This document shows positions 2,823 through 26,633 of a DNA stretch of 27,398 bases, in pieces. Position 1 is the stretch's first letter. Every line of letters begins with the position of its first letter. The position numbers were made by a program, and so were the translations under genes. Under the pieces are notes generated by a model. It made no database searches. It saw only the letters and a list, made by a program, of their open reading frames with translations, and was not told the DNA's origin. Origin of the DNA: a virus; IMG/VR virus record IMGVR_UViG_3300021373_002979, positions 1-27,398 of that record, one strand, 5' to 3'.

Positions 2823-4370
2823 ATGTTTGAGAGAATTAATAACATTATAGAGCAAGCCGAAAGCCTTTTGGAGCGGGTAAACCCATCGTGGGCGCTAAGT
2901 AGAGCAAGAGCGCGACAAATGTTAGGCGCTTATGAAGCGGCAAAACCACGACGAAATAGAGTGATGAGGGGTGAGGCTAGAGGGCCAGATCTTGTTGCTA
3001 ATGAATCGGTTGAATCCTTACGATCACAAGCGCGTTTTTTAGATGAAAATTACGATATAGTTACGGGTGCCCTAGACACTTTAGTTGCCCGAACCGTTGG
3101 GCCACGCGGAATCATGGTTGAACCCATGGTTATGAATAAAAACGGCGACCTAAACGACGATATAAACAGACAGATCAATGACCTTTTTTGTGACTGGTGG
3201 GAAAACCCAGAAGTAAAGGGAGAATATAGCGGCTCACTAGTGGAACAGTTGGCGGTCAGAACATGGCTTAGAGATGGCGAGATGTTTACCCAGATGATAG
3301 AGGGAGACAAGCCAGGTCTAAGTAGAACGGCCGGTATTCCTTTTCACATCGAAATAATGGAACCGGACCTTGTGCCGGTAAACTATGAAAATAGCTCAAT
3401 ACGCCTTTTTCAGGGCATAGAGAAAAATGCATGGGGTAGACCTATTAAGTATTGGGTTTATCGTGGACACCCAAACGATTACAGCTATAGATTACCAGCG
3501 ATAGAGGATTTAAAGCCAATTAAGGGTGACAACCTTATTCACCTAAAGATGGTAAAAAGGATCGGCCAAACACGCGGAATTAGTCTACTTCATGCGGTAA
3601 TTACTCGGTTAGAGGATTTGAAGGATTATGAGGAAAGCGAAAGGATAGCGGCGCGAATATCAGCGGCGGCGGCCTTTTACATTAAAAAAGGTAACCCAGA
3701 CTCTTTTATTCCTGAAGATACTGATACAGCAGATGAAGAGCGGTCATTCAAGATTAAGCCTGGAATGGTTTTTGATAGGTTGAGAGAAGGTGAGGAAGTT
3801 GGAAGCATTCAAAGTAACAGACCATCCACACTCTTAGAGCCATTCAGAAACGCCATGGTTAAGGCGGTAGCTAGCGGTACTAGAACCGGCTATTCGAGCA
3901 TCTCGAAAGACTACAAAGGCTCTTATTCTTCACAGCGTCAGGAGTTAGTTGAACAGTGGGAGCACTACGCGACACTACAACAGCAGTTTGCAAAGATATT
4001 CAAGGCACCGATTTATAGACGATTCTTAAGGATGGCTATTTTATCTGGTAAAATAAAAGTACCGGTTGAAGTGGATGAAAAAACGCTTTATAGAGCGCAC
4101 TACCAAGGGCCCGCAATGCCTTGGATCGATCCAGACAAAGAGAGCAAGGCTAACGAGCGAAACAATAAAGCAGGGTATAACACTCGAAGCGCTATTATAC
4201 GCTCAAGAAATGAAAACCCGCTTGAAGTTGAACAGCAGCTAGCTAGAGAAAGAAAGCGTGAAAAAGAGCTAGGACTTGTTTTAACGAGTAACGCAGAAAA
4301 CGAGATACAGCAACCGCAACCGGTAGAGCAGCAAGAGCAAAAAGCCGAAGAGGTACAGAGCGATGATTAA
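2823..4370 (+). CDS. Portal protein, lambda gpB family
   Basis: Forms the dodecameric portal ring at the capsid vertex through which DNA enters and to which the tail attaches. The 515-aa sequence has the lambda-portal pattern: an N-terminal RARQMLGAYEAAKP-like segment, SLRSQARFLDENYDIVTGALDTLVARTVG, a central alpha/beta body, then GTRTGYSSISKDYKGSYSSQRQE, a hallmark stretch (YSS...SSQR) of the family. The C-terminal 60 residues are Glu/Gln-rich and probably disordered. The last 8 bp overlap the start of the protease-capsid gene. Confidence 0.95.
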   Translation: MFERINNIIEQAESLLERVNPSWALSRARARQMLGAYEAAKPRRNRVMRGEARGPDLVANESVESLRSQARFLDENYDIVTGALDTLVARTVGPRGIMVEPMVMNKNGDLNDDINRQINDLFCDWWENPEVKGEYSGSLVEQLAVRTWLRDGEMFTQMIEGDKPGLSRTAGIPFHIEIMEPDLVPVNYENSSIRLFQGIEKNAWGRPIKYWVYRGHPNDYSYRLPAIEDLKPIKGDNLIHLKMVKRIGQTRGISLLHAVITRLEDLKDYEESERIAARISAAAAFYIKKGNPDSFIPEDTDTADEERSFKIKPGMVFDRLREGEEVGSIQSNRPSTLLEPFRNAMVKAVASGTRTGYSSISKDYKGSYSSQRQELVEQWEHYATLQQQFAKIFKAPIYRRFLRMAILSGKIKVPVEVDEKTLYRAHYQGPAMPWIDPDKESKANERNNKAGYNTRSAIIRSRNENPLEVEQQLARERKREKELGLVLTSNAENEIQQPQPVEQQEQKAEEVQSDD

Positions 4371-8666: not shown

Positions 8667-9035
8667 ATGGAAAAGCAGCTAAGTATTAACGATATTTTGA
8701 ATACGAATGATATTAAAACTAAAAAAATAGATATACCTGAATGGGGCGGTTTTGTAGAAATCCGATCAATGACCGGGGAATCTAGGGACGCTTATGAAGA
8801 GAGCGTTTTTAGAAAAATGGATAACGGCGAATATGAAAGGGATTTAAGCAACGCTAGAGCCAAATTGATAGCCGCTTGCGTTTATGGTCCTGATGGCCAA
8901 CGCATGTTTAAGAGTGATAACCAGGTGAAAGCCCTTGGCAGCAAGAGCGCCATTGTTCTTGATAGACTATTTGCCGAGTGCCAGAACTTAAACTCTATTA
9001 GCCAGCAAGACATGGATGAGCTAGAGGGAAAGTAA
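8667..9035 (+). CDS. Tail assembly chaperone G
   Basis: A 122-aa chaperone that binds the tape measure protein during tail assembly. It starts with a strand-rich segment (KKIDIPEWGGFVEIRSMTGESRDAYEE) and continues as helices (ARAKLIAACVYGPDGQRMF), a common pattern for siphovirus G-type chaperones. The end reads E-L-E-G-K-stop over the heptamer GGGAAAG (9026-9032). There a fraction of ribosomes should shift to -1 and make the longer G-T form. RBS: GTAGGGG upstream of ATG 8667. Confidence 0.9.
   Translation: MEKQLSINDILNTNDIKTKKIDIPEWGGFVEIRSMTGESRDAYEESVFRKMDNGEYERDLSNARAKLIAACVYGPDGQRMFKSDNQVKALGSKSAIVLDRLFAECQNLNSISQQDMDELEGK
9026..9032 (+). promoter_or_regulatory. -1 ribosomal frameshift site GGGAAAG (G/G-T)
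   Basis: The zero-frame codons are GGA-AAG-TAA. A -1 slip re-pairs them as GGG-AAA, then GTA. The heptamer is identical to the one in the lambda G-T gene. The stop codon follows the slippery codons immediately, so the site sits at the last sense codon of G. I see only weak secondary structure downstream. Confidence 0.9.
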
Positions 9036-9349
9036 GAGGCAGGCCATTTTTAAGGTTTTTACACCGATACTCCTTAGAGGTGGGCTTGCCGGTACCACTA
9101 CTTAAAAAGATCATGACAAGCCACGATATATCCGAAGCAATGGCTTATGAGAAAGTTGAGCCATTTTTAAGAACAAGGGTAGATTATTGGTGCAAATCAA
9201 TAATGGCTTTGCTTGTTAATTTAAACACAACAAGAGCCAATGCTGTTACGGCCTCTAAATTTTCCCCACCATGGGAGAAGCAGAGCAAGGTCGAAAACCT
9301 AACAGATAAAGTTAAATCTATGTTTGGTGTACCAAATAAAGAGGATTAA
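9032..9349 (+). CDS. Tail chaperone T extension (G-T by -1 frameshift)
   Basis: This frame is -1 relative to the G gene, is open from 9020 and has no credible start of its own; the first GTG at 9080 lacks a proper ribosome site. After slippage on GGGAAAG, ribosomes would continue from GTA at 9032 for 105 codons, giving a G-T protein of about 227 aa. The T part (LPVPLLKKIMTSHDISEAMAYE...) is helical and ends directly before the tape measure gene, as in lambda. In lambda the heptamer is the same and the T part recruits tail tube protein. The frame, heptamer, stop and gene order all agree. Confidence 0.9.
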   Translation, partial: VRGRPFLRFLHRYSLEVGLPVPLLKKIMTSHDISEAMAYEKVEPFLRTRVDYWCKSIMALLVNLNTTRANAVTASKFSPPWEKQSKVENLTDKVKSMFGVPNKED

Positions 9350-16380: not shown

Positions 16381-16539
16381 TTAAAGATCCTCTAAGAAAT
16401 CCACTGCTTTTTCATAGAGGTTTTCGGCTATGTCGGCTGTCATATGATGCAATCCAAAATGCACGAAAAAACACCCAGCTATAAACCCAGTAAAAAAAGG
16501 GTTTCTTTTACATGATTGCTCTAGTTTAGTTAACATCAT
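16381..16539 (-). CDS. 52-aa small membrane protein
   Basis: A small frame from ATG at 16539 (a second ATG is the next codon) to TAA at 16381. An AGGGG ribosome site lies about six bases upstream. The sequence has a short basic N terminus (KLEQSCKRNP), a hydrophobic stretch (about 14-31, PFFTGFIAGCFFVHFGL) and an amphipathic acidic tail (AENLYEKAVDFLEDL). It starts inside the 3' end of the preceding small gene. Function unknown; membrane location is inferred from the hydrophobic stretch. Confidence 0.6.
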   Translation of the reverse strand: MMLTKLEQSCKRNPFFTGFIAGCFFVHFGLHHMTADIAENLYEKAVDFLEDL

Positions 16540-16705
16540 TGTTACCCCTACCTTGGTTACTTTTAGACTCTAGATAATCAGCTAACAAGTCATTATTCTC
16601 GATTAATTTTTGACAACATTTCCTTAAATCATTAAGCTCGATATGCTGGACAAAGAAAAGACCAAACAGCGAAATAATCAATATTGTATGTATATCCACA
16701 TTCAT
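16526..16705 (-). CDS. 59-aa small membrane protein
   Basis: Starts at ATG 16705 in an ATGA overlap with the stop of the winged-helix frame and ends at 16526, overlapping the next gene by 14 bp. It has a GGGAGG ribosome site at normal spacing. One N-terminal hydrophobic helix (residues 4-20, DIHTILIISLFGLFFVQ) is followed by a charged helical tail with Cys30-Cys31. Overlap at both ends, the ribosome site and the hydrophobic segment argue for a real gene. Single-helix membrane or spanin-like topology is possible. Confidence 0.6.
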   Translation of the reverse strand: MNVDIHTILIISLFGLFFVQHIELNDLRKCCQKLIENNDLLADYLESKSNQGRGNNDVN

Positions 16706-17043
16706 GCCTGCTTAACCTCCCTTTTTAGTTCCCACTTTTTACCATTTTTCTCAATCAGTCCCGACTCAGACAGAGACTTAATAACAGAACTAACAGTACT
16801 TCGACCCGCTCCAGTGCTTTTTTGGAGACTATCATAATTGATATCAGCACCGCTTAAGATGGCCTTTTCAACAAGCTTGCGCGGTTTGTGAGTACTGCCT
16901 TTTCCTTTGGCCGGTGGTTTATTAGTCTTTTTAGGGACTATTGTTAGTTCTGGTCTTGGTCTTGGTTTCGGTTCTTGGTCCTGAATAGGCCTATTTGGGA
17001 CTTTTTCCGAGACTGTCGGCGCTTCAGTCTTCAAAAACTGCAT
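16702..17043 (-). CDS. Winged-helix DNA-binding domain, probably -1 frameshift extension
   Basis: The first ATG of this frame is at 17043, giving 113 aa. Residues 14-54 are a Pro/Lys-rich linker. Residues 55-108 form a winged-helix/HTH domain: LVEKAILSGADINYDSLQ, recognition helix region TGAGRSTVSSVIKSLSESGL, wing IEKNGKKWELK. No ribosome site precedes the ATG. The same frame is open upstream as far as 17160 with no other standard start codon. It lies in the -1 frame of the membrane protein gene, whose last codons form GGGAAAG-TAG. Slippage there would add 148 residues (35 acidic linker residues plus this domain) to the 249-aa membrane protein, giving 397 aa. A separate translation from ATG 17043 is the alternative. 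Confidence 0.75.
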   Translation of the reverse strand: MQFLKTEAPTVSEKVPNRPIQDQEPKPRPRPELTIVPKKTNKPPAKGKGSTHKPRKLVEKAILSGADINYDSLQKSTGAGRSTVSSVIKSLSESGLIEKNGKKWELKREVKQA

Positions 17044-17125
17044 TATGTGAGCGGGTATAGTCTCTTCTTTAAAAGTGGGGCTTTTAAAGTCTTGCTTTAG
17101 TCTTTCTTCTTTAGTTTCGTTTTCA

Positions 17126-17171
17126 GCCTCATTGTTAGAGGCCTCTACTTTCCCAGGCTTTCAAGCTCCTC
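17126..17171 (-). promoter_or_regulatory. Predicted -1 frameshift signal: SD-like element, GGGAAAG, stem-loop
   Basis: Read on the minus strand: GAGGAG (17171-17166), an 11-nt spacer, then GGGAAAG (17154-17148) with zero-frame codons GGA-AAG-TAG. A 5-nt spacer follows, then stem GCCTC/GAGGC (17142-17138 with 17130-17126) with loop TAACAAT. This is the three-part layout of bacterial dnaX-type -1 frameshift signals. The heptamer equals that of this phage's G-T site and that of lambda. In the -1 frame the nearest upstream stop is TGA at 17163-17161. Confidence 0.75.
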
Positions 17172-17894
17172 TTCTTTTCGTGGAGCCAGAATGTTGACAA
17201 GTACAGCGGTTAATAGAAGTGGTGTGATTATCATAGCAAAACCAAACGCTAGGCGAGCGTATAACCTGAATTGGTCTTCATCCATCCATCTTGGCATGAA
17301 CGCTAGACCAGCTGAAAAAACAACCTGGCTAGAAGGGGTGGAGGCGTCTAGCTTTGCTATCTGCTTTATCAAGTCGTCCCTATATTCTGTAACTTCTTCA
17401 AGCTTGCCCTGATGCTTGCTTTTGAATTTGTCTGCATTTTTTACGTTGTTACTCCAAGTTTCGACGCTATCATTTGCTTTAGCTAGTGAGATTGTAAGCT
17501 GATCCCTTTTAAAAGCGTCTCCACTCGATGTTTTTTGGGCATCTAAAGCAAGTATGCAGCTCAAGCAGGCAAAAAGAGACAGAGTTAACAGATAGCTAAA
17601 CCATGCCCAGCCTAGTATTGACAAGATCACGTTTTTTATCAGATTAGCAAAAAGAACCATGGCCAGCGCTAGAAGAGCGATATCTAAAAATGAATAAGAT
17701 AGCGGCATTACTATTCTTGTTAAGTCGCTTGGGCTGCTGTTTAATTGACCAAGCCTAAAATTGTAATATATGCTGCATGCTGTCAGAATGAGCATTGACG
17801 AAAAGCCAAAAAAGATACGGTGCTGATTGAATGCGTTAAATCCCGCTTGTGCTATCGCTTCCGCTTTTGACGCTGGCTGTGCTTGCGTTGACAT
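17145..17894 (-). CDS. Four-helix inner membrane protein (membrane anchor)
   Basis: A 249-aa protein with four predicted hydrophobic helices at about 27-45, 61-86, 90-117 and 209-236. An even helix number with the N terminus inside puts the C terminus in the cytoplasm. The 118-208 loop, periplasmic by this topology, is charged and coiled-coil-prone (AKANDSVETWSNNVKNADKF). The protein ends APRKEEELESLGK on the slippery sequence GGGAAAG-TAG, so a fraction of product should carry the winged-helix extension. It has an AGGAG ribosome site; ATG at 17894. No enzyme motif seen and no family recognised. The plan (four helices, linker, winged helix) recalls FtsK without its motor, but that likeness is architectural only. 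Confidence 0.8.
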   Translation of the reverse strand: MSTQAQPASKAEAIAQAGFNAFNQHRIFFGFSSMLILTACSIYYNFRLGQLNSSPSDLTRIVMPLSYSFLDIALLALAMVLFANLIKNVILSILGWAWFSYLLTLSLFACLSCILALDAQKTSSGDAFKRDQLTISLAKANDSVETWSNNVKNADKFKSKHQGKLEEVTEYRDDLIKQIAKLDASTPSSQVVFSAGLAFMPRWMDEDQFRLYARLAFGFAMIITPLLLTAVLVNILAPRKEEELESLGK

Positions 17895-18067
17895 TTTTTC
17901 TTTCTCCTAGATTTACGTTTAAGATTTGATTTACTGCTTTTTGATCGACGCTTTTTTAACGCCTTTTTTAGATTGCACTGGCGGCAAGGCTCAAGCTTTA
18001 ACGCCATAACAATCAAAAATGATATTGATATAATGCTAAAAAATATTATGAGTATTTCTTGTAGCAT
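17852..18067 (-). CDS. Small membrane protein with CxxC and basic tail
   Basis: A 71-aa frame. An N-terminal hydrophobic helix (residues 4-23, EILIIFFSIISISFLIVMAL) precedes CRQC, and the rest is extremely Lys/Arg-rich. It overlaps the upstream gene by 22 bp and the membrane-anchor gene by 43 bp. About 150 bp between those two would otherwise be empty, which supports it. Part of the basic tail is encoded in the overlap, so composition there is constrained by the other frame. No good ribosome site at ATG 18067; coupling with the upstream gene is likely. Function unknown. Confidence 0.5.
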   Translation of the reverse strand: MLQEILIIFFSIISISFLIVMALKLEPCRQCNLKKALKKRRSKSSKSNLKRKSRRKKKCQRKHSQRQKRKR

Positions 18068-26515: not shown

Positions 26516-26570
26516 TGTGATGGCGCATCGCTCCAAATCATCGGACTTTAGTGCTAAAAAGTGACTTCAG
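26516..26570. repeat. 55-bp direct repeat, copy 2
   Basis: Second copy of the segment at 26313-26367, 203 bp to the right. It runs straight into the 21-bp tandem iterons. Confidence 0.95.
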
Positions 26571-26633
26571 ACCCCAAATCGATGACTTCAGACCCCAAAT
26601 CGATGACTTCAGACCCCAAATCGATGACTTCAT
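26560..26633. repeat. 21-bp tandem iterons
   Basis: Three full units (26560-26580, 26581-26601, 26602-26622) and a fourth partial one (26623-26633). The unit begins GATGACTTCAGACCCC; the first copy differs in its first two bases. There is no variation or spacer between units. A 21-bp period equals two helical turns, so bound proteins would line up on one face of the DNA. Confidence 0.95.

Follow-up and report, generated by a model that had tools for sequence, protein, structure and literature searches.

A predicted −1 frameshift joining a four-helix phage membrane protein to a winged-helix domain

The membrane gene, its slip site and the −1 frame

The stretch of DNA analyzed here (the window) is a 27,398-nucleotide IMG/VR virus contig, with a lambda-type terminase, portal and tail region on its plus strand and a replication/recombination operon on its minus strand. 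Near the end of this operon lies a 249-amino-acid membrane ORF (17145..17894, minus strand) with the final codons CTG GGA AAG TAG. Reading and scripts both placed an in-frame G_GGA_AAG slippery heptamer (17148..17154, minus strand) directly 5' of the 0-frame TAG stop codon (17145..17147, minus strand), as the first-pass annotation had described for the GGA-AAG-TAG end of this gene. The −1 frame was also found to open just before the site, 13 nucleotides 5' of the membrane ORF stop, and it ends at 16702; taken from the slip onward (16702..17154, minus strand; GGG AAA GTA ...), it encodes a linker predicted to be unstructured, followed by a winged helix. Decoding through the slip would give a 397-amino-acid fusion with the predicted joint peptide LGK-VEASNNEAENETK, and the two lengths of 249 and 397 amino acids agree with those annotated previously. 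G_GGA_AAG has, beside A_AAA_AAG, been called highly shift-prone in E. coli (PMC5009743, excerpted text).

Both kinds of flanking signal named in the annotation are present. The SD-like GAGGAG (17166..17171, minus strand) was located by scripts 11 nucleotides 5' of the heptamer, and its duplex with the anti-SD sequence (−8.3 kcal/mol) is equaled or exceeded at 0.5% of 7,180 in-frame sites. On the 3' side there is a hairpin of 6 base pairs with a 7-nucleotide loop (17125..17143, minus strand; −9.4 kcal/mol), its spacing from the heptamer being 4 nucleotides instead of the 5 reported earlier. Its stability stands out when folded over 58 nucleotides (z −2.4; 2 of 200 shuffles as stable) and is not significant over 78 nucleotides (z −0.9; 41 of 200 shuffles as stable). 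Readthrough of the TAG codon was rejected as an explanation for the second product because the 0 frame meets another stop codon after 15 codons.

The first ATG of the −1 frame, at 17043, had been said to lack a ribosome site and to be preceded by no other standard start codon, and scripts confirmed both points: the best duplex upstream of it is +0.7 kcal/mol, the median over 25 gene starts being −5.8 kcal/mol, and there is no ATG, GTG or TTG 5' of it in this frame. Thus, of the two observations named beforehand as speaking against frameshifting, namely frames lying far apart and a good ribosome-binding site before the domain, neither is found in the window. Coding potential was then compared across the joint. 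In stretches of 19 codons, all 4 ahead of the heptamer favored frame 0 and all 7 past it favored frame −1, with the stretch spanning the heptamer being undecided or slightly −1. From the slip site to the first ATG (17151-17044), the 36 codons of the −1 frame scored +17.4 bits, against −15.3 and −50.1 bits in the other two frames; among 2,514 overlapping off-frame stretches of equal length and free of stop codons, taken from 24 other genes, none reached this score. Given that the −1 frame is coding upstream of the ATG at 17043, and that this ATG has no ribosome site, the heptamer is most likely where ribosomes pass into the −1 frame, as far as coding statistics can tell.

We then asked how often such signals would arise by chance. 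XXXYYYZ patterns of any kind occupy 62 of the 7,430 in-frame sites in the 25 window genes, while core heptamers (counted as A_AAA_AAR and G_GGA_AAR) occupy 6, two of which are the gene-end sites at 9026 and 17154. At this rate, which includes the very sites under test, a core heptamer would fall by chance into the short overlap of the window with P ~0.003. With the amino acids fixed and codons drawn according to the phage's own usage, P rises to 0.041 for the window heptamer, and SD-like strength is matched with P 0.28. The signals in the window by themselves would thus make a good, though not overwhelming, case for frameshifting.

The other gene-end site belongs to the tail-chaperone gene (region 8667-9349), which ends in the same GGGAAAG heptamer (9026-9032) followed by TAA; use of this heptamer at 9026 had been pointed out in the first-pass annotation. 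The ORF in its −1 frame matches phrog_337 and its hairpin is strong (−23.3 kcal/mol, z −4.8), while a strong SD-like site is absent. This appears to be a typical frameshift of the G-T tail-chaperone kind.

Relatives with and without a frame change at the joint

The protein is represented by three lineages in total, the window included. One consists of two IMG/VR contigs carrying the same gene (L002 and L003; 61% identity to the window protein). The L003, L005, L010, L012, L016 and L100 records are the second contig of this lineage and are counted with L002 as one. The L002 contig is also represented, cut differently, by L004, L008, L011, L014 and L099, as is the contig of the remaining lineage (L006) by L009, L013, L017, L098 and L101. 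A further candidate from a DNA pattern scan (L007) was dropped since it encodes a different, unrelated protein. In L002 and L003 the four-helix protein, linker and winged helix are encoded by a single in-frame ORF of 352 amino acids, with no stop codon at the joint. Because both parts are encoded there as a continuous fusion, the two parts in the window belong to one protein, and the fusion of membrane and winged-helix parts is, judged from these sequences, genuine.

L006 (57% identity to the window) resembles the window in its arrangement. Its membrane ORF ends at TGA, the winged helix lies in the −1 frame, and the joint carries an in-frame A_AAA_AAG 15 nucleotides 5' of the stop codon, with a GGGAG 11 nucleotides 5' of the heptamer, which is the same SD spacing as in the window. 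This A_AAA_AAG is the only one among three core heptamers in the 6,150 in-frame sites (26 ORFs) of its contig. No notable hairpin was detected downstream (z +0.3). Frame 0 again scored best in 4 of 4 stretches of 19 codons before the heptamer and frame −1 in 6 of 7 after it, the exception being the stretch 120-180 nucleotides past the slip. At the window's rate, the 142-nucleotide overlap would hold a core heptamer with P 0.036; with the amino acids fixed, P is 0.144 for the heptamer and 0.14 for SD-like strength. With amino acids fixed, the heptamers are therefore only modestly surprising in both the window and L006.

The first-pass annotation had proposed an alignment of homologues as a check, and what emerged was one in-frame fusion and one −1 arrangement that pairs another canonical heptamer with an equal SD spacing; its central claim of a −1 frameshift fusing a membrane protein to a winged helix is thus supported by the relatives. 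The −1 arrangement exists in two of the three lineages, and the third, in frame, has a run of nine A in its linker. This run is the only one of at least 9 A or T in the 38,462-nucleotide L002 contig, and it would arise given the peptide with P 0.148. Lengthening the run to ten A closes the frame after KKNT, and shortening it to eight closes it after KKHVKQD; slippage to either length would leave a membrane protein without the winged helix. We regard slippage on this run as a suggestive, sequence-based route to the short form. The unslipped product in L002 would be the long form, so the product ratio may vary among lineages. An SD-like site was not found 5' of the A run, and the fusion in L002 can be made without any shift. 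Within the winged-helix part of L002 there is also a further in-frame heptamer, G_GGA_AAA (3978-3984), at which a −1 slip would truncate the domain.

These comparisons bear on two alternatives to programmed frameshifting. It could be supposed that the fusion was ancestrally in frame and that the window and L006 each acquired an independent one-base indel, by mutation or assembly error, with the heptamers being incidental. The in-frame state of L002 and L003 fits such a history, and so does the finding that, with the amino acids fixed, the heptamers are not rare. However, two separate lineages would have had to arrive at an equal −1 phase, a canonical heptamer at the joint and an equal 11-nucleotide SD spacing, while, starting at the heptamer itself, codon usage in the −1 frame is intact, and neither ORF contains further breaks. 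We consider this history very unlikely. A second possibility is that the winged helix is a protein of its own, made by reinitiation or from an internal start codon. L006 has two weak possible starts, GTG 1917 (−2.4 kcal/mol) and GTG 2049 (−4.2 kcal/mol), of which the GTG with the −2.4 duplex overlaps the stop codon (GTGA), and overlapping starts are present elsewhere in these operons. By contrast, the window offers no start before 17043, initiation at this site lacking a ribosome-binding site would discard about 35 coding codons, and L002 is a fusion, so that separate synthesis seems just as improbable as the indels. Programmed two-product decoding by a −1 frameshift is in our judgment the best reading of the sequences, with a probability of roughly 0.78. 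That two distant relatives also place a slip-prone site at the joint suggests, at the level of sequence, that both forms matter to the virus.

Further relatives were not recovered. Searches by tblastn with the membrane proteins of the window, L002 and L006 found none in 50,697 phage records, and with that of L002 none in 72,556 plasmid records. Viral contigs queried with the −1 part alone yielded none, nor did scans of species genomes with two peptide patterns per scan, patterns with which absence is weak evidence. A profile search for the membrane or the winged-helix protein was negative in all of the 80 contigs it covered, out of 168 confirmed to carry the window's Cas4-type exonuclease, a weak negative given that, by eye, about 35 of the 80 extend 3.6 kb past the exonuclease, the distance of the gene in the window.

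Protein anatomy, neighborhood and possible role

Hydropathy predicts four membrane helices at about residues 28-46, 66-86, 91-117 and 213-235; the first stays under the cut-off in the window and exceeds it in L002 and L006, and was placed from these relatives. Helices 3 and 4 are joined by a helical loop of about 95 residues. With the N-terminus inside, this loop would be periplasmic and the C-terminus cytoplasmic. An AlphaFold2 model of the natural L002 fusion has low overall confidence (mean pLDDT 63, pTM 0.29), with the loop forming a confident helical hairpin (residues 121-170; pLDDT 84-91 per block), the winged helix reaching pLDDT 74-85, and the other parts being weak. A Foldseek search of PDB and BFVD with this model returned no hit with an E value of at most 0.001. 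The membrane part matched no Pfam or PHROGs family above threshold, its weak match being to phrog_6188, a family of unknown function (E 0.0033 for L002 and 0.039 for the window).

When the −1 part of the window was modeled alone with AlphaFold2, a winged-helix domain was obtained at residues 88-145 of the −1 frame (16720..16893, minus strand), with pLDDT 86-92 per block of 10 and an unstructured linker ahead of it. The model and its fold neighbors bear out the winged-helix assignment of the first-pass annotation, while the 35-residue acidic linker described there has to be replaced by about 87 residues predicted to be unstructured. In VIA-align the nearest fold was DasR, a GntR-type regulator (Z 8.4, rmsd 1.5, 56 aligned), followed at Z 7.3 by FtsK gamma and a viral Z-alpha domain, values under 8 being common by chance according to the tool's own note. 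Pfam returned weak matches below the gathering scores, mostly to winged-helix families, and the strongest PHROGs match for the winged helix was that of L006 to replication initiators (phrog_270, E 2.7e-6).

Three other assignments of the protein were rejected. A lipoprotein was discarded because LPAM_1 stayed under its cut-off. Regulators of the ToxR/CadC type have an N-terminal wHTH, one membrane helix and a periplasmic sensor, whereas the wHTH here is C-terminal and four helices are predicted. Finally, a fragment of FtsK was dismissed since neither window part matched a P-loop family in Pfam at E up to 1.

The gene is flanked by small ORFs on both sides. Just upstream is a small protein with one membrane helix, a CxxC motif and a very basic tail (17852..18067, minus strand), the tail holding 25 Lys/Arg in 48 residues. 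Its counterparts in L002 (2843-3022) and L006 (1007-1186) are each 22% identical to it, and a small CxxC membrane protein ending in a basic tail precedes the membrane gene in all three lineages. Immediately downstream is a small hydrophobic ORF (16526..16705, minus strand) with an ATG overlapping the −1 frame stop codon (ATGA), and by eye small hydrophobic ORFs with overlapping starts also follow the gene in L002 and L006. The remaining genes of the relatives differ from those of the window by eye, and the window's tail chaperone was found in none of three records of the relatives. The L002 terminase is nearest (about 50% identity) to those of Pelagibacter and Rhodoferax phages, which we take to be podophages. 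Because it is common to such different phages, the membrane cassette would seem to be a self-contained unit.

Two repeat arrays were recorded in these contigs. Downstream of the primase-helicase gene in the window, a 21-bp direct repeat (TGACTTCAGACCCCAAATCGA) occurs in 3.4 perfect copies (26562-26632); this array is iteron-like and might be an origin, which makes it a candidate for binding by the winged helix. The contigs of both relatives contain long, degenerate hexamer arrays (CCATAG; CTCTGG) at distances of about 1 to 7 kb (L014 1466-1656 and 1873-2071; L017 1-206), measured from the membrane gene.

We propose the following scheme for the two products. Most ribosomes would end at the TAG codon and release the 249-amino-acid inner-membrane protein with its periplasmic helical hairpin. 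Some would pause on the SD-like site and the hairpin, slip back by one base on GGGAAAG, and go on to add the flexible cytoplasmic linker and the winged-helix DNA-binding domain, giving the 397-amino-acid form. Both forms could then assemble into a mixed membrane complex that tethers phage DNA to the inner membrane, perhaps at an origin, and the ratio of the forms would set the number of DNA-binding heads per complex. Slippage and its rate, topology, oligomerization and DNA binding are what we infer in this scheme. A tethering role is suggested because the gene sits in a replication operon, a long flexible linker ends in a DNA-binding fold, and a membrane partner with a basic tail is encoded alongside; of the roles considered we take it to be the most likely, and we advance it tentatively, at odds clearly short of even.

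The same decoding could serve other ends. In one alternative, the long form would regulate transcription from the membrane, with the helical hairpin sensing a signal from the periplasm or the membrane. The fold of its winged helix is near those of GntR/IclR-type regulators, and the periplasmic part is conserved in three lineages. However, no operator or target is known, non-regulators (FtsK gamma, Z-alpha) are also among the fold neighbors, and a C-terminal domain behind a long flexible linker would be expected to relay signals poorly, so that we regard a regulator as rather unlikely. In another, the protein would act in the exclusion of superinfecting phages or in takeover of the host envelope. 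Phage inner-membrane proteins acting in exclusion, like P22 SieA, are described in the available part of PMC10883804, and the winged helix weakly matches the Ren-like exclusion family phrog_142 (E 0.0014). This family is only one of 14 weak matches, however, most of them to replication or transcription families, and the gene lies at the end of a replication/recombination operon, by eye apparently not beside a repressor; exclusion or envelope takeover is thus improbable in our view. Returning to the tether, a wider picture can be drawn. Lambda-type tailed and aquatic podophage-like viruses may share a cassette whose core protein is required both with and without a DNA-binding head, with three lineages reaching this end by three routes (GGGAAAG, AAAAAAG and slippage on nine A), the two-form protein being a phage's means of holding DNA at the inner membrane in a set ratio. 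This picture is speculative, and we give it somewhat less credence than the tethering role itself.

Comparison with known systems

Membrane proteins of two lengths made via slippage, frameshift genes and membrane DNA anchors are each already known, whereas the combination of a frameshift with a membrane DNA anchor, and the protein family itself, seem new. Literature searches combining frameshifting with phage membrane/DNA-binding or winged-helix proteins found no matching system, and within the portions covered of a review, of surveys of bacterial frameshift genes and of a phage frameshift-tool paper (main text), there was no membrane protein gaining a DNA-binding domain; one such survey, in the part available, includes four predicted transcriptional regulators among its candidates. 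Limited as they are, these searches agree with the earlier statement that no phage system of this kind has been described. If confirmed, the case would add a non-structural use of frameshifting in phages and open the way to studying the placement of phage DNA at the membrane.

The lambda G-T frameshift uses GGGAAAG, the heptamer also found in the membrane gene of the window, but it serves tail assembly, involves no membrane protein and adds no DNA-binding domain. In Citrobacter rodentium, transcriptional frameshifting yields two length variants of the inner-membrane protein TssM (PMC4256274, excerpt). TssM differs in being a type VI secretion part in which an interrupted gene is rescued, and the excerpt mentions no DNA-binding domain.

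Two membrane-bound DNA-binding proteins come close in architecture. The p16.7 protein of phi29 has a single helix, a homeodomain-like DNA-binding part and no known frameshift, and shares by prediction the combination of membrane anchorage with a cytoplasmic DNA-binding domain, which here is a winged helix behind several helices. Through this phage-encoded integral membrane protein, viral DNA is recruited to the membrane (PMC4974454, available text). FtsK likewise combines four membrane helices, a long linker and a C-terminal winged helix, and its gamma domain is one of many fold neighbors (Z 7.3, rmsd 2.2-2.3, 58 aligned), at a Z range common by chance. By contrast, no ATPase motor was found here, and identity over the aligned domain is 9%.

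The E. coli dnaX site is A_AAA_AAG, with an SD about 10 nucleotides upstream, and dnaX resembles the present gene in giving two C-terminal forms (tau/gamma) from one gene. The proteins are unrelated, and a slip would lengthen the product in the window and L006 but shortens it in dnaX; slippage in the present case is predicted from sequence. As stated in the part of PMC1088944 available, E. coli makes the two dnaX forms through ribosomal frameshifting, while Thermus relies on transcriptional slippage, its RNA polymerase slipping at nine A to yield the short form. The predicted frameshift in the window and L006 versus the run of nine A in L002 would repeat this pattern of two solutions and, if confirmed, provide a dnaX-like case in which relatives reach the same two products by different slip mechanisms.
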